From an uncultured Pirellula sp. (GTDB lineage: Bacteria; Planctomycetota; Planctomycetia; Pirellulales; Pirellulaceae): a stretch of 14,476 bases of DNA. The DNA is taken from positions 1 through 14,476 of the forward strand of contig CAILTZ010000308.1 of the NCBI GenBank assembly GCA_903837255.1, given 5' to 3'. The notes under the pieces were generated by a model. That model saw nothing but the letters and a program-made list of their open reading frames with translations, was not told the origin of the DNA and did no database searches. A program made the position numbers and the translations under genes. Below are positions 537-6,215 of the stretch, in pieces; the stretch's first letter is position 1, and every line of letters starts with the position of its first letter.

Positions 537-2123
537 CTAGCCGGATTGTTTCGCCAAGTGAAGCTTGTACTCGACGGCATCGACCAATGCCGCCCAGGAG
601 GCTTCGATGATGTTCTCGCTCACACCGATGGTCTGCCAGGTGTGATGCTCATCGGTGCTTTCGATGTTCACACGGATCCTCGCTGCTGTACCGGCCTCTC
701 CGTTGACCACACGCACCTTGTAGTCGACAAGCCGCATCGATTCGATCCCAGGATAGAATCTCACGAGGGTTTTCCGCAACGCAGCATCCATGGCATTGAC
801 CGGCCCATGCCCCTCGGCAGCCTCGACGCACACACTGTCTGCAATCTTGAGCTTCAAGATCGCTTCGGCGAATTGCTGGTTCCTGGCGGTGTCCAAGTCA
901 CCGGCTAGGACCTGGTACTTGATCGTCTCAAAGTGGGGGGTATACGTCCCCGAACACTGCTTGACCAAAAGATCGAACGAGGCCTCGGCTGCCTCGTACT
1001 GATAGCCTTGGTTCTCTTTCTTTACGACATGTTCCAAGATACGATCCAAGAGCACTCGGTCCTGTTGTCCACCATGCTTTTGGGTCAATGCAGCGATATT
1101 CGATCTGCCAGACAATTCGCTCACCAAGATCCTGCGTTCGTTTCCGACGAGTTCCGGGTTCATGTGCTCGTAGGTGTGCGCAAATTTGTTGACCGCGTGA
1201 ACGTGCATACCGCCTTTGTGAGCAAAAGCGCTACGACCGACAAAAGGCTGGCTGTTTCGAGGAATCAAATTCGCCGTTTCATAGACGAACCGCGACAGTT
1301 CGGTCAGGTGTTCGAGCGAGCCGTTTTGGAGGACTCGGTAGCCCTGCTTTTTGAACTGCAAATTCGAGATCACGCAGACCAAGTCGGCGTTTCCGCAGCG
1401 TTCGCCGATCCCATTGATCGTACCCTGGACCTGATCGCAGCCCGCTTCGATCGCAGCCAAGGAATTGGCGGTCGCAAGATCGCCATCATTGTGGCAGTGG
1501 ATCCCGAGCTTGGCCCCTGTAGGATCAAGCCTCGATTTGGAATCTCGGACAATCGCGGCGACCTGCTCGGGAAGCGATCCGCCGTTGGTATCGCAAAAGA
1601 CAATCCATTTGGCACCCGCTTTGGCCGCCGTCTCGACCGCCGATAAGGCATACTGCGGATTCGCCCTGTAGCCATCGAAATAGTGTTCCGCGTCATAGAC
1701 GATCTGGGCGTAACGCGAAAGATACTCGACCGTCTGGCCAATCATGTCGAGGTTTTCTTGCAAGCTCACTCCCAGGACTTCCGTTGCGTGGAAGTCCCAA
1801 GACTTGCCCACGATGGTGATCACCGGTGTCTGGGCGGCTATCAAGGCCGCGATTCCCGGGTCCTCGGCCGCCGTCATTCCCCGCCTGCGAGTCATGCCAA
1901 AGGCCGAAAGGAGGCTTGAACCAAGGTTCAGCTGCTTGGCCTTCTGAAAAAACATCGCATCCTTTTCGTTCGACAGTGGATATCCACCCTCGATCATCTC
2001 GATGCCGATCTCCGAAAGCCTCACGGCGATGTTGAGCTTGTCCTGGAGCGAAAGACTCACTCCCTCGCCTTGGGTTCCATCGCGTAGGGTCGTGTCGTAG
2101 ATGAGGATCGATCGGTCTTGCAT
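537..2123 (-). CDS. cimA: (R)-citramalate synthase
   Basis: The 528-residue protein should condense acetyl-CoA with pyruvate to (R)-citramalate, the first step of the threonine-independent route to 2-oxobutyrate and isoleucine. It has the alpha-isopropylmalate/homocitrate synthase TIM barrel: DTTLRDGTQGEG at 10-21, the metal-binding HCHND at 209-213, NGIGERCGNADL at 237-248, and a C-terminal regulatory (LeuA-dimer-like) domain from about 385 to 520. The GTQGEG form and the overall layout match the CimA-type (TIGR00977) rather than LeuA, where GEQSPG-like residues are usual. The length is typical. The ATG at 2123 has no Shine-Dalgarno site and lies about 17 nt after the U tract of a strong terminator hairpin, which makes regulation by attenuation likely (see the leader entries). 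The HD-domain gene lies upstream on the same strand. Substrate choice is inferred from family resemblance; 2-isopropylmalate synthase is the main alternative. Confidence 0.92.
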   Translation of the reverse strand: MQDRSILIYDTTLRDGTQGEGVSLSLQDKLNIAVRLSEIGIEMIEGGYPLSNEKDAMFFQKAKQLNLGSSLLSAFGMTRRRGMTAAEDPGIAALIAAQTPVITIVGKSWDFHATEVLGVSLQENLDMIGQTVEYLSRYAQIVYDAEHYFDGYRANPQYALSAVETAAKAGAKWIVFCDTNGGSLPEQVAAIVRDSKSRLDPTGAKLGIHCHNDGDLATANSLAAIEAGCDQVQGTINGIGERCGNADLVCVISNLQFKKQGYRVLQNGSLEHLTELSRFVYETANLIPRNSQPFVGRSAFAHKGGMHVHAVNKFAHTYEHMNPELVGNERRILVSELSGRSNIAALTQKHGGQQDRVLLDRILEHVVKKENQGYQYEAAEASFDLLVKQCSGTYTPHFETIKYQVLAGDLDTARNQQFAEAILKLKIADSVCVEAAEGHGPVNAMDAALRKTLVRFYPGIESMRLVDYKVRVVNGEAGTAARIRVNIESTDEHHTWQTIGVSENIIEASWAALVDAVEYKLHLAKQSG

Positions 2124-2290
2124 GGTCTTTTGCCGTTTAGAAAATAAAAAACCCCTGAAGCGGCAGGCTTCAGGGGTTGGGTTGCAAACTTTGGTTGCGA
2201 CACGGTTTCAAAATTGAAACTCTCCCCAAGGCCTACCGGCACTCGGGGATAATAATCTCGGTAAAGTTACAGAAATTGGTTCGTCGCATA
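2124..2290 (-). promoter_or_regulatory. cimA leader: ribosome-mediated attenuator with alternative hairpins
   Basis: Four segments can be drawn on the minus strand. Segment 1 TCCCCGAG (2249-2242) pairs with segment 2 CTTGGGGA (2230-2223) over 8 bp (one G-U). The stem continues, after one bulged T, with GCC/GGC around a GGTA loop that holds part of the leader stop codon. Segment 3 (2176-2168, CCCC-TG-AAG) can pair with segment 2 (CTTGGGG) over 7 bp with a 2-nt bulge. Otherwise it forms the terminator with segment 4. A small hairpin, GTTTCAA/TTGAAAC (2220-2205), sits between segments 2 and 3. A ribosome stalled on the Ile codons would cover segment 1 and free segment 2 to block the terminator; one reaching the stop would cover segment 2 and allow termination. 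The 2:3 pairing is modest, so the switch is a model, not a demonstration. Confidence 0.6.
2136..2178 (-). terminator. Intrinsic terminator in the cimA leader (attenuator)
   Basis: On the minus strand AACCCCTGAAG (2178-2168) pairs perfectly with CTTCAGGGGTT (2160-2150) around a 7-nt loop (2167-2161), and the stem runs straight into TTTTATTTTC. This is an 11-bp stem with a U tract, a textbook rho-independent terminator. It ends about 17 nt before the cimA ATG, which leaves no room for a separate promoter plus leader, so cimA transcription most likely has to pass through it. It may also serve as the terminator of the upstream HD-domain gene. Confidence 0.88.
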
Positions 2291-2298
2291 GTTTTCAT
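2233..2298 (-). CDS. Putative cimA leader peptide with three consecutive Ile codons
   Basis: A 21-codon frame runs from ATG at 2298 to TAG at 2235-2233, starting 23 nt after the HD gene stop. It reads MKTMRRTNFC then NFTEIIIPECR. Codons 15-17 are ATT ATT ATC (2256-2248), and Ile is the end product of the pathway that cimA starts. The next codons (Pro, Glu) form the 5' arm of an RNA hairpin whose loop contains the stop codon. The overall plan resembles classic attenuator peptides such as that of the enterobacterial ilv operon, which also carry runs of branched-chain codons near the end. No Shine-Dalgarno site is visible. If the overlapping promoter is real, the RNA would start near the internal ATG (codon 4, 2289) and translation could be leaderless from there, giving 18 residues. 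Its function would be the act of translation rather than the product. Confidence 0.6.
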   Translation of the reverse strand: MKTMRRTNFCNFTEIIIPECR

Positions 2299-2325
2299 TT
2301 TTCGCTTGAGCTCGGGGTCTGTCAA
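2297..2325 (-). promoter_or_regulatory. Candidate sigma70-type promoter for the cimA leader
   Basis: TTGACA (2325-2320) overlaps the TGA stop of the HD-domain gene. After exactly 17 bp comes AAAAAT (2302-2297), which matches four of six -10 consensus positions. A start six to eight bases downstream would fall at about 2291-2289, on or next to the ATG of leader codon 4. The -35 is perfect but the -10 lacks its first T, so this remains a candidate. Read-through from the HD gene is the alternative source of cimA transcript. Confidence 0.45.
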
Positions 2326-3662
2326 CTCGAACCTGCCAAAATCTCTTGTAGTAGTTCAGGGATATTCGCTTTTCTGATCGAGTCGCGGTGTTGGGGATGG
2401 ATAAAGACACGGACCCGTTTAACCATTTCGTCGAATTGGCGAGTGGCTAGCGACTGGACCACCGGGGAGACTTCGAACAGGTCCCTGTATTGGCCCGACT
2501 TTTGGCGGATACGCAGATCGAACTGGACCTCGCACTGGACCGGAGGAGCATCGATGAGCAATTCGTGAACCCCGATCGTTGTTTTGGTTCGGTCCGAAAG
2601 GGACCTGGCGAGTTTCCCAGAGAGCTCGACGAGCTGCCCATAGGGCTTGCTTGCGATCGAGCGATGAAGCTCTGGTTCGCAAAAGCAATCGAATTGGGCG
2701 ATGCGTTTGTAAAGCGTTCTTCGAGGGCCAAAGATCCCCTGGGCGCAAGGCTCGCTGGGAGTCCCTTTAGAATGCTGGATCAACGAAGCCTTCATCGCCG
2801 CGTCGTCCATATCGAGCCATGACTCGACAAGCTCGGTATGACCGCTCAAATCGTACACGGCTCGCTGGAGCATCGCCGTAGCGCTTCGGACCGCATGATG
2901 CCAATAGACTTCGCTGAACATGACGTACCTGGCAAAGACCATCATCTCGGCAGCCGTGCGGCCTTTTTCGCTGATCGCTATGCGATGCCGCTCGGAGTCG
3001 ATGCACATGGATTGGACCAAGCGATGGCGGTCGAAATTTCGTCCGTAGGGCACACCGGCGTGCAACGAATCCCGCTCGAGGTAATCGAGCTTGTCGATGT
3101 CGATCGGACCGCTCAGGATCGATCGCAGGATCGAATGGAGCGGATCGAGCGAACTGCCTGGACTCGGGTCGAGGAACTCGGCGATCGACTCGGGCTCAAG
3201 ATCCCAGTCGGATTTGAGCAAGCCAGCGATTTCTGAGTGAACCAAGAGCCGCTTGGCAAGCAGCTCGTGTCGAGGGGAGCCGACCAAGCCTAGGTCTTCG
3301 ATCAGGTGGCAAAAAGGCCAGTGCCCAAGATCATGAAAGAGTGCCGCGACGATTAGCAGCGAAGCATCATGATCGCCAAAAAGCATCGGTTGTTTCGGAT
3401 CGTTAGCCAATTGCTTGAGCACCTCAATCGCGTTGCGATACACCCCCAGTGAGTGCTCAAACCGCGAGTGGCTCGCCCCGGGGTAGACCAGCGAAACGAG
3501 CCCCAGCTGGGTTACGCCGGCCAAGCGGCGAAAGGGGGCCGTATCGATGAGCCGGCGGACCCTCGAAGTGATCGGCACATCGATCTCCGGGCTGATGCGG
3601 ATGACCGACGAGGTAGGTTGCAATTCCGGAATCATAGATGCGATTGGACTTTCCCGCCCCAT
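2322..3662 (-). CDS. HD-domain phosphohydrolase (dGTPase/SAMHD1-like, COG1078 type)
   Basis: This is probably a cytoplasmic metal-dependent nucleotide triphosphohydrolase. Counting from the ATG at 3662 (446 residues), the HD ligands are visible: H70 in RFEHSLGV, H110-D111 in the FHDLGHWPFCH motif, and D190 in PIDIDKLDYLERD. The Lys and Tyr of that last motif (K191, Y194) occupy the places where SAMHD1 uses K312 and Y315 to hold phosphates. SHSRFEH and the PFxRLxxVxQLG block also fit the SAMHD1/YpgQ-like branch. The actual nucleotide or other phosphoester is not known. The start is uncertain: a TTG at 3692 and an ATG at 3635 are in the same frame, and none has a good ribosome site; recognisable domain sequence begins after 3635. 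The gene is followed on the same strand by the cimA leader and cimA, and is divergent from the sigma-factor gene. No defect is seen. Confidence 0.85.
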   Translation of the reverse strand: MGRESPIASMIPELQPTSSVIRISPEIDVPITSRVRRLIDTAPFRRLAGVTQLGLVSLVYPGASHSRFEHSLGVYRNAIEVLKQLANDPKQPMLFGDHDASLLIVAALFHDLGHWPFCHLIEDLGLVGSPRHELLAKRLLVHSEIAGLLKSDWDLEPESIAEFLDPSPGSSLDPLHSILRSILSGPIDIDKLDYLERDSLHAGVPYGRNFDRHRLVQSMCIDSERHRIAISEKGRTAAEMMVFARYVMFSEVYWHHAVRSATAMLQRAVYDLSGHTELVESWLDMDDAAMKASLIQHSKGTPSEPCAQGIFGPRRTLYKRIAQFDCFCEPELHRSIASKPYGQLVELSGKLARSLSDRTKTTIGVHELLIDAPPVQCEVQFDLRIRQKSGQYRDLFEVSPVVQSLATRQFDEMVKRVRVFIHPQHRDSIRKANIPELLQEILAGSS

Positions 3663-3752
3663 GTGCCATTGGAGCGCCAGGCCACTGATCAAAATTCAAT
3701 AAAAATCCAGCTGAAAAACCACTCCCTCGGAGGCATTTCGCCGGGTAGACGG

Positions 3753-3779
3753 TTGGCATCCTCGACGGCACGCTAGAAT
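3753..3779 (+). promoter_or_regulatory. Candidate promoter for the sigma factor-kinase operon
   Basis: TTGGCA (3753-3758) and TAGAAT (3774-3779, preceded by GC) are each close to the -35 and -10 consensus, but the 15-bp spacer is short. The start would lie about 60-65 nt before the sigma-factor ATG. On the opposite strand GCTAAAAT (3803-3796) could supply a -10 for the HD-domain gene. Both are suggestive only. Confidence 0.3.
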
Positions 3780-3849
3780 GGTAGTGTCAGGCTGCATTTT
3801 AGCGGAAATACAATTTCGGCGGACGCTAGGAGACTCCTACGGGAGCTAC

Positions 3850-4506
3850 ATGTCAGATTCGATTTGGCCAGAGGGCCAAGCAACCACGGAACTGCTGGTC
3901 GATGTCCGAGAGGGCAAACCACAAGCGGTCGAAGAACTCTTCGACCGTCATCGAGATCCCTTGCGCCGCATGATCGCCATGAGGCTCGACCAAAGGCTAG
4001 CCCAGAGAGTCGACGTGAGCGACATCATTCAGGATGTGCTCATCGAGGCCAACCGCAGGCTCGTCGAGTACGTTAACTCGCCGACGATCCCTTTTCATCT
4101 TTGGATCCGACAAATCGCCAAAGATCGGATCATCGACGCCCACCGACGGCATCGCATGTCGGCCAAGCGGAGCATCGATCGCGAGCAAGGCCCGATCGGG
4201 TTTGCATCCAACCAAGAATCGGCAATCGATCTGGCCAACCAATTCAAAGACGGCGGATTGACCCCCGCAGCCGCCGCGACGCAAAAAGAACTGGCCCACC
4301 ACATGGAAATGGCTATCGGGCACCTCAAGGAGGGGGATCGCGAAATCATCCTGATGCGTCACTACGAGCAGCTCAACAATCAGGAGATCGCGCAGTCCCT
4401 AGGACTGACCGAACCGGCCGCTAGCATGCGATACCTGCGTGCGATCAAACGTCTGCGGGAGGTGATCGAAAGCCTGCCAAATCTCAATAGGGAAATCCGG
4501 GAATGA
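3850..4506 (+). CDS. ECF-type RNA polymerase sigma factor, Planctomycete-specific subfamily
   Basis: This 218-residue protein should direct RNA polymerase to a specific promoter set. Region 2 spans about residues 28-102, with DVSDIIQDVLIEANRRL (55-71) as the core-binding segment and FHLWIRQIAKDRIID as region 2.3-2.4. A linker of about 45 residues follows, then region 4 with its helix-turn-helix at about 150-208 (GDREIILMRHYEQLNNQEIA). The wording fits the planctomycete sigma-70 family modelled as TIGR02984. The start at 3850 is preferred because GGGAG ends 4 nt before it; an ATG at 3778 in the same frame would add 24 residues unlike the family and has no ribosome site. The stop overlaps the start of the kinase gene (ATGA), so the two are almost certainly co-translated. 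Control by the kinase through phosphorylation is plausible, since no anti-sigma gene is present. Confidence 0.9.
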   Translation: MSDSIWPEGQATTELLVDVREGKPQAVEELFDRHRDPLRRMIAMRLDQRLAQRVDVSDIIQDVLIEANRRLVEYVNSPTIPFHLWIRQIAKDRIIDAHRRHRMSAKRSIDREQGPIGFASNQESAIDLANQFKDGGLTPAAAATQKELAHHMEMAIGHLKEGDREIILMRHYEQLNNQEIAQSLGLTEPAASMRYLRAIKRLREVIESLPNLNREIRE

Positions 4507-6215
4507 ACGCCGAGCTCCCGGATGAGCCGATCTCGGGTCAGACTCAGCTTGACGATTCCCAAGCCGATGAGAACCTTGCTCTGCTGGTCGCAGAACTGAC
4601 CGATCGATTGCAAAAAGGCCTCGCTGTCGATATCCACCAAGTCTGCCGCGAGCACCCACTGTGCCGAGACTATCCAGCCGTGGCCGATGAACTGCGCGGC
4701 ATCTGGGGGACAATCATCGTGACCGATGCCATTGGGAGTCACGAAGTCCGATTGATGGCCGAGTCACTTCCCCCCTCAGGAGATTCGAACGTCTGGCGAT
4801 TGGCCTTGCCCTGCGTGTTCGGAGATTATCGCCTGGACCAAGAAATAGGTCGCGGCGGCATGGGAGTCGTGTACCGCGCCGAGCAGATCAGCCTCGGACG
4901 CCAAGTCGCCGTCAAAATGATCCTCAAGGATCAATTGGCTTCGGAGCCCGAGCGGCAACGTTTCTTTGCCGAAGCCCGCGACACGGCACAGTTGCAGCAC
5001 CCAGGAATCGTGCCTGTCTACGATGTCGGTGAAATCGACGGTCGGCCTTATTTCGCCATGCAGTACATCCAAGGTCGAACGCTTCAAGAGCTCATCAACG
5101 CCGGTTCGATCGATGAGCGAGAATCAGTCCGAATCGTCGAATTGATTGCCCAAGCGGTCGATTTTGCCCACCAAAACGGAGTGCTGCACCGAGACATCAA
5201 ACCATCGAACATCTTGATCGATCAAAACGGTGTCGCCCGGCTGACCGACTTTGGTTTGGCCAAACATACCGATGCGGGAGAGTCGCTCACCCGCACCGGA
5301 GTCATTCTAGGAACCCCCAGCTACATGAGCCCCGAACAGGCCAGCGGACGCATGGGAACCATCAGCCCGGCGTCAGATGTGTACAGTTTGGGTTCGGTCC
5401 TCTACCATGCACTCACTGGCAGGCCACCTTTCGTTGCCAAAACAACGATGGATATGCTCTTGCAAGTCATGGAGCAGGATCCCCCAAGTCCCAGGTTGCT
5501 CAATCCCAAAGTCGATCGCGACTTGGAGATGATCCTCACACGCTGCTTGCAAAAGCCCCCGGATTTGCGGTACCCGAGCGCTTCGAGACTCGGCGATGAC
5601 CTAGCAGCTTATCTAAACGACGAACCGATCTCCGCACGATCTGGGCAATTTGCACAGGTGGTAGCAAGATGGTTTCGCGAGACCCACCATGCACCGGTCC
5701 TAGAAAACTGGGGGCTATTATGGATGTGGCACTCGCTGGTCTTGGTCATCGCAAGTGTTATGACAGAGTTTTTGCAATGGAACCATGCCAGACGCGAGTC
5801 CTATGCGCTTTTGTGGACGGTGGGGTTAGGCAGTTGGGCCGCCGTCTTCTGGGCGTTGCGGCGACGGATGGGACCGGTGACATTCGTCGAGCGGCAGATC
5901 GCGCACGTTTGGGGCGCGGCCATGATCGGTATCGCTGCGCTGTTTCCCGTCGAGTGGGCACTAAAGCTCGATCCGCTTCGGCTCACACCGTTGTTAGCCG
6001 TGATCACCGGCATGATGTTTTTCATTAAAGCGGGGATACTCGGTGGCGTGTTCTACATACAAGCTGCAAGCCTATTTGTATCGGCAGCGGCCATGTTGGC
6101 TTGGCCCGAGGTCGCCCACTTGATCTTTGCGCTCGTGGCTGGACTGTGCTTCTTCGTGCCGGGCCTGAAGTACTATCGTTTGCGCCGTTCGATTCAAGCG
6201 ACCCAAAAGAACTAG
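4503..6215 (+). CDS. Membrane-anchored Hanks-type Ser/Thr protein kinase
   Basis: The 570-residue protein has an N-terminal segment (1-105) without a known fold. A complete kinase domain follows at about 108-372: GRGGMG nucleotide loop (116-121), VAVK lysine K138, HRDIKPSN catalytic loop with D231 (229-236), DFG (249-251), SPEQ in place of APE (276-279) and the DVYSLG helix (292-297). All catalytic residues are present, so it should be active. The C-terminal part (about 404-553) contains roughly six hydrophobic segments, so the kinase is probably held at a membrane by a multi-pass tail instead of the single helix plus sensor seen in PknB-like proteins. The ATGA overlap with the sigma-factor gene says the pair works together, presumably with the kinase transmitting a membrane signal to the sigma factor. 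The signal is unknown. Confidence 0.92.
   Translation: MNAELPDEPISGQTQLDDSQADENLALLVAELTDRLQKGLAVDIHQVCREHPLCRDYPAVADELRGIWGTIIVTDAIGSHEVRLMAESLPPSGDSNVWRLALPCVFGDYRLDQEIGRGGMGVVYRAEQISLGRQVAVKMILKDQLASEPERQRFFAEARDTAQLQHPGIVPVYDVGEIDGRPYFAMQYIQGRTLQELINAGSIDERESVRIVELIAQAVDFAHQNGVLHRDIKPSNILIDQNGVARLTDFGLAKHTDAGESLTRTGVILGTPSYMSPEQASGRMGTISPASDVYSLGSVLYHALTGRPPFVAKTTMDMLLQVMEQDPPSPRLLNPKVDRDLEMILTRCLQKPPDLRYPSASRLGDDLAAYLNDEPISARSGQFAQVVARWFRETHHAPVLENWGLLWMWHSLVLVIASVMTEFLQWNHARRESYALLWTVGLGSWAAVFWALRRRMGPVTFVERQIAHVWGAAMIGIAALFPVEWALKLDPLRLTPLLAVITGMMFFIKAGILGGVFYIQAASLFVSAAAMLAWPEVAHLIFALVAGLCFFVPGLKYYRLRRSIQATQKN

Follow-up and report, generated by a model that had tools for sequence, protein, structure and literature searches.

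Why should a short reading frame with three consecutive isoleucine codons, a hairpin and an apparent terminator lie directly ahead of cimA, the citramalate synthase gene, which serves the first step committed to making isoleucine, in the 14,476-nucleotide stretch of DNA from an uncultured Pirellula sp. that was analysed here (the window)? We think, with a probability of about 0.9, that the cimA leader is a ribosome-mediated transcription attenuator opened by isoleucine shortage and, since the same arrangement recurs in many planctomycetes, that these cells probably sense their isoleucine supply via a co-transcriptional ribosome. Control by Ile-tRNA supply was the original prediction, and sequence comparison now lends it support: isoleucine codons are enriched, the antiterminator sits where the leader stops, and two RNA segments, termed 2 and 3, match each other in a lineage-specific way. 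Computation shows which parts are present, how far they are conserved, which amino acid the leaders favour and how segments 2 and 3 match each other from genus to genus.

From these observations we infer the transcript ends, the ribosome stalling, the kinetic choice of fold and the isoleucine response of the following circuit. RNA polymerase would start at the promoter (2325-2297) and a ribosome would translate the short leader. With enough charged Ile-tRNA, this ribosome would pass the three Ile codons, reach the stop and cover segment 2, whereupon segment 3 would pair with segment 4, the terminator would form and cimA would go untranscribed. If charged Ile-tRNA were short, the ribosome would stall on the Ile codons and cover segment 1 (CCCCGAG), leaving segment 2 free to pair with segment 3, and transcription would go on into cimA. 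With no ribosome at all, hairpin 1 would hold segment 2 and the terminator would form, and the circuit would therefore normally be off.

The leader and its parts

Read on the minus strand from the HD-domain gene towards cimA, the order is promoter-like site, leader frame, hairpin 1, antiterminator segment and terminator (Table 1), and the gene names given at the outset proved right; the named relatives also agree with the phylum proposed. As for the surroundings, a planctomycete-type ECF sigma factor frame (TIGR02984, above cut-off) overlaps a Ser/Thr protein kinase frame by 4 bases (3778-6215, plus strand). Threonine deaminase, which would serve another route to isoleucine, reaches 166 bits to TIGR01127 in this 83% complete genome against a cut-off of 378.75; the cut-off is exceeded in 2 of 23 genomes, and 18 of the 23 have some match at E<=1e-40.

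Table 1. Features of the cimA locus, in window coordinates
Feature	Position	Strand	Evidence and detail
cimA, citramalate synthase, putatively regulated gene	537..2123	-	NCBIfam TIGR00977, 662 bits (curated cut-off 450)
HD-domain gene, upstream of cimA leader	2322..3692	-	Pfam PF19276 and PF01966
Sigma-70-like promoter	2297..2325	-	TTGACA 2325-2320, 17-nt spacer, AAAAAT 2302-2297; 10 of 12 consensus matches
Leader peptide frame (predicted)	2233..2289	-	18 codons and TAG, MRRTNFCNFTEIIIPECR; sequence, and same length in close relatives
Putative control codons ATT ATT ATC (Ile-Ile-Ile)	2248..2256	-	Sequence; Ile enrichment in relatives' leaders
Hairpin 1 (segments 1:2)	2223..2249	-	11 bp, TCCCCGAG.GCC/GGC.CTTGGGGA; fold -20.3 kcal/mol
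Segment 2, antiterminator 5' arm	2224..2238	-	CGGTAGGCCTTGGGG; holds leader stop codon
Segment 3, antiterminator 3' arm; also terminator 5' arm and loop	2161..2176	-	CCCCTGAAGCCTGCCG
Intrinsic terminator (predicted)	2146..2178	-	Stem 2178-2150, 5-nt loop, T6 2151-2146; fold -20.9 kcal/mol

Just one promoter-like site was found at the locus, against 0.1 in shuffles. Its -35 hexamer overlaps the end of the HD gene, and such sites precede the leader in 88 of 119 loci compared with 25 of 119 after shuffling (one mononucleotide shuffle each). The leader had been read as 21 codons from ATG 2298 (MKTMRRTNFCNFTEIIIPECR and a stop, with TAG at 2235-2233), and while the ATT ATT ATC run and the TAG are indeed present, that start was not borne out. 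The -10 hexamer AAAAAT shares bases with ATG 2298, and 18 codons is the length seen in close relatives, so the leader probably starts at ATG 2289, in frame and 7 nt past the -10 box. Leaders of 18 codons also occur in the relatives L031, L032, L033, L042 and L063, with the start 7-8 nt after the -10 box in the last four and 36 nt after it in L031; across all 88 loci that have a promoter-like site the median is 32.5 nt. Given how close the promoter (2325) and the leader start (2289) lie here, translation of this frame may be leaderless, as the 7-8 nt distance in those four relatives would also suggest.

RNA folding, by which the original prediction could be checked, gives the 177-nt leader a z of -5.55, with none of 200 shuffles as good and all of the described parts present. 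Some details needed adjustment. Hairpin 1 does have 11 bp counted from the T of the third Ile codon, but only two bases of the stop codon, its U and A, rather than the whole of it, fall within the 4-nt loop. The terminator and its U tract are there, with a stem of 12 bp by folding, or 10 without the two end A-U pairs, where 11 had been claimed, and the antiterminator is real and extends further than first suggested, with 2238-2224 paired to 2176-2161. From the end of the T-rich stretch to the cimA ATG at 2123 there are 17 nt, as first described, and the T6 tract itself is separated from that ATG by 22 nt, which leaves little room for another promoter.

How might such a leader choose between its folds? 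With the ribosome edge placed 12 nt past each Ile codon and the 3' arm of the terminator not yet made, folding yields the antiterminator at about -28 kcal/mol, and with the edge at the leader stop the antiterminator cannot form. The finished leader folds into the terminator at equilibrium whatever the position of the ribosome, and so the switch must be a kinetic one, in which the antiterminator would have to win by forming first.

Isoleucine codons ahead of cimA in related genomes

Taken alone, the Ile count of this locus is modestly unusual (3 against 0.86 expected, p 0.045), and the weight of the argument therefore comes from relatives. Regions upstream of cimA were taken from 60 genomes of relatives (58 with a strong match; G014 and G045, with a weak LeuA-like match, were dropped), from named GTDB contigs (the best 80 of 221 confirmed loci) and from the class (strong match in 115 of 118 genomes), which after removal of duplicates make up 212 regions. 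In the phylum, 35 of 98 genomes had a strong match. G011, G065 and G164, which matched later parts of the gene only, and G150 were left out.

An intrinsic terminator lies within 330 nt of cimA in 128 of the 212 regions, and the leaders of these 128 loci hold 514 Ile codons in total against 114.9 expected (the GTDB part being the best 80 of 221 in both counts), a z of 36.9 which, since the loci are related, is not a probability. The tally takes the best-frame count over the last 22 codons of frames ending 4-75 nt before the terminator and compares it with dinucleotide shuffles; by allowing no more than 75 nt from leader stop to terminator, it misses forms with a long spacer (L140, perhaps L065). 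Ile stands out among the 20 residues, with Val at z 16.5, Gly at 8.0 and Leu at 0.8, and 93 of the 128 loci reach p<=0.05 for Ile singly. Given the enrichment of Val, isoleucine is perhaps not the only signal: Val too may be sensed by some leaders, or it may have been retained for a different reason.

The two long-spacer cases share a feature of their own, CCGGGGGATAGGGTTTGCGGTGGGGGAAA, which lies far before a CCCCCGAGG terminator upstream of cimA. In L140 the shared stretch begins at the stop codon closing a frame in which the Ile codons are spaced, and this is perhaps a long-spacer form of the attenuator.

How widely is the unit kept? A genome-by-genome tally was made under a loose rule (a terminator, at least two Ile, p<=0.35), which L125 and L119 failed on p only, and from which L034 and L112 (too short) and 29 named loci without a twin in the tally were excluded. 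In our own genus the terminator and the Ile leader occur together in 21 of 24 evaluable genomes, a count that leaves out one genome without a strong CimA match and two with cut contigs. Among the exceptions, L039 and L064 have neither terminator nor leader, and L047 alone keeps the terminator without an Ile run, which is the pattern that would speak against an Ile-responsive leader. Beyond the genus, the unit is found in 19 of 22 genomes from other genera of the family and 18 of 26 from other families of the order, then in 23 of 28 in f22, 18 of 23 in f23, 1 of 3 in f26 and 0 of 2 in f24, and it is missing altogether from f21 (0 of 27 loci among L163-L238); we tentatively take f21, f22 and f23 to be Isosphaeraceae, Planctomycetaceae and Gemmataceae. 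The 29 named loci outside the tally divide into 14 with a terminator and at least two Ile, 2 with a terminator only and 13 with no terminator. Outside the class, 3 of 28 regions have a terminator and an Ile leader (L338, L342, L345), and L348, also one of the 28, is incomplete. Among the 212 regions are also 26 loci (L085-L110) whose names mostly point to other phyla, and three of these have both elements: L095 and L098, two of the three contigs named Omnitrophota (with ...IIEIIGIIIGQGGPGPMP; not L096), and L100, a contig named Phycisphaerales.

Certain f23 and f26 leaders (L250-L259) carry in addition an in-frame GCGCAGGGAGTGCGC (Ala-Gln-Gly-Val-Arg) after the Ile codons, about 129-211 nt before the cimA start motif. 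It forms a hairpin, GCGCA/UGCGC with the loop GGGAG, for which L222 has the swapped pair GCGCG/CGCGC, and of the 13 exact matches to this sequence in 148 genomes of the class, 10 fall within cimA leaders.

These surveys bear on what else the leader might be. Attenuation could act on the translation of cimA or through Rho instead of an intrinsic terminator, as ribosome-controlled leaders of such types do elsewhere, and in some relatives (L228, L242, L204) the U tract of a terminator-like stem is poor; with a strong stem and T6 at this locus, however, and terminators in 22 of the 24 own-genus genomes, we regard this as very improbable. Equally improbable, in our opinion, is direct sensing of a metabolite by the leader RNA, as a riboswitch or by binding a protein, with no role for the Ile codons. 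A terminator/antiterminator pair is riboswitch design too, and the hairpin GCGCA-GGGAG-UGCGC is conserved in the f23 and f26 leaders, yet what the genera were seen to have in common is in-frame Ile and the position of the stop codon rather than any aptamer-like core. Rfam, moreover, finds no family at gathering score in the window and only two hits at E<=0.5 on 20 related loci, far below gathering score (31 vs 56 and 23.8 vs 297 bits), so a known Rfam leader or riboswitch family was rejected. The weakest suggestion, which we also reject, is that hairpin and U tract are the HD-domain gene's own terminator and the Ile triplets are due to chance: the terminator does lie between the two genes, and p for Ile at this locus alone is modest, but of 46 related loci, 8 have the HD gene next to cimA and 30 have the leader (22 of these without the HD gene), a promoter-like site separates the HD gene from the leader, and Ile is strongly enriched among the 128 loci. 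On these counts the attenuator unit goes with cimA, and the neighbouring HD-domain gene is not part of what is conserved.

Pairing between the leader stop and the terminator arm

If the cimA leader is a ribosome-mediated attenuator, the segment that prevents termination should be found where a ribosome that has finished the leader would cover it. In the 119 loci that have both leader and terminator, the stretch pairing best with the terminator 5' arm spans, in the median, -5 to +13 counted from the first base of the leader stop, and shuffling of each locus gives p<=0.05 for the pairing of segment 2 with the terminator arm in 74 of them. Two simpler tests were weak. A swap test on the 119 loci (mean rank 0.26; 31 at or below 0.1) was weak because relatives share arms, which led to the use of one locus per genus with permutation, and a count, in 30 genera and with the register held fixed, of pairs between the terminator arm and the 5 nt preceding the stop (90 of 150 pairs against 83.4 shuffled, 40 of 2000 shuffles as high; 101 pairs at slide +1) was weak because the register differs between lineages, hence a flexible duplex test.

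In that test, with one locus from each of 53 genera, own terminator arms beat permuted arms at z -9.3, none of 5000 permutations being as good. Permutation within groups gives z -6.0 (0 of 5000) for the 32 genera of the family and order and z -3.1 (10 of 5000) for the 8 of f23; for the 12 genera of f22 it is not significant (z -1.2, 578 of 5000). Complementarity of 13-nt windows to the terminator 5' arm in the 53 genera is best at the leader stop, at -12.1 kcal/mol for the window from -6, compared with -4.1 to -6.1 kcal/mol for the same type of window in the leader body (-60 to -16). Direct reading gives matching stop-proximal and terminator pairs such as GGTCG with CGACC (L116), GGCGT with ACGCC (L147), GACTTGAGG with CCTCAGGTC (L160, one G-U), CTTCGGGGT with ACCCCGAAG (L198) and CTCCGGGG with CCCCGGAG (L207). 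As segment 2 sits at the leader stop, a ribosome ending there would cover the very segment that prevents termination.

Within the genus the alignment of relatives, proposed originally as a check, bears out the Ile run and the terminator, but its covariation is uninformative. The antiterminator has 92.2% of cells paired over 21 sequences, and its columns are so nearly invariant that double changes are absent; the terminator has 94.8% of cells paired. Hairpin 1, present at the locus, is kept only in part: 80.1% of cells are paired across the genus, with no covariation signal, so full conservation did not hold up.

Other branched-chain genes, Gemmata-like genomes and known attenuators

Is the arrangement peculiar to cimA, or common to branched-chain genes? 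Before ilvB and ilvC in 23 genomes, terminators were found in 2 and 1 respectively, and none has an Ile-rich leader. The sole two-Ile frame among these controls (L301, ilvB; MISRDGKLIPQLFA, 14 codons) was not counted, because the frame is short, its Ile codons stand apart and 271 nt lie between the end of the terminator and the ilvB match. Among 20 genomes examined for leuA (L262-L281), 14 have a terminator, and the leuA leaders hold 99 Leu against 18.6 expected (z 15.5) and 9 Ile against 9.1 (mononucleotide shuffles). With Ile in cimA leaders and Leu in leuA leaders, the amino acid matches the end product of the gene. Seen by eye, a second Leu-containing motif with a hairpin lies nearer leuA than the terminator does in L264, L266, L272, L273, L275, L280 and L281, possibly a second control element.

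We consider it likely that Planctomycetia have separate attenuators at two committed branch points of branched-chain synthesis, Ile at cimA and Leu at leuA, with none comparable at the shared ilvB and ilvC, and that the cimA attenuator extends to a Gemmata-like genus with large genomes and an oxidosqualene cyclase, where its working would imply coupling. In genus g48 a terminator and a leader with at least two Ile occur in 10 of 10 genomes (L192, L198, L199, L202, L205, L206, L240, L243, L244, L245). Oxidosqualene cyclase is above cut-off in 7 of these 10, with 1190 bits in G072, and partly on this basis we tentatively take g48 to be Gemmata and G072 to be G. obscuriglobus. In Gemmata obscuriglobus, transcription and translation are reportedly spatially separate. 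If the cimA attenuator works in this Gemmata-like genus, transcription and translation of that gene would have to be coupled, contrary to the reported separation. Since attenuation needs a ribosome close behind RNA polymerase, its presence there makes the dispute over nucleus-like separation genetically testable. More generally, the double match of Ile with cimA and Leu with leuA offers a clear and testable control circuit for a phylum with few regulatory models.

The mechanism is of a known kind, and the case of cimA in Planctomycetota is one for which we found no earlier report in the literature searched: titles and abstracts, with most subscription papers outside the scope, contained no report of leader peptides or attenuation for cimA, citramalate synthase, Planctomycetes or Gemmata. 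In 2010 the authors of one study knew leader peptide systems only from Proteobacteria and Actinobacteria before their own example from Firmicutes (PMC2965389). A further paper describes uORF attenuators before ilvB in Corynebacterium and candidates in other bacteria (PMC10272879). The ilvB-II, ilvB-OMG and ilvB RNA motifs have branched-chain amino-acid codons in a uORF, and ilvB-II has a terminator and an antiterminator (PMC10272879). The cimA leader resembles them in this, but these motifs precede ilvB, whereas here the unit precedes cimA and nothing comparable stands before ilvB in 23 genomes.

Closer to home, the leuA leaders of the same class follow the leader-and-terminator plan of cimA, likewise matched to the end product of the gene, but with Leu instead of Ile and with no terminator in the 4 own-genus genomes examined. 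The trp, his, leu and ilvGMEDA attenuators of Proteobacteria have leaders with runs of codons for the regulated amino acid and choose among 1:2, 2:3 and 3:4 pairings. The cimA leader shares with them the codon runs, predicted alternative pairings and a stop-codon ribosome that would mask segment 2. It differs in the gene that it precedes, in its predicted specificity for Ile (with some Val) and its occurrence in Planctomycetota, in having the leader stop codon inside segment 2 and, here and in some close relatives, in a leader frame that would start at about the start of the transcript.
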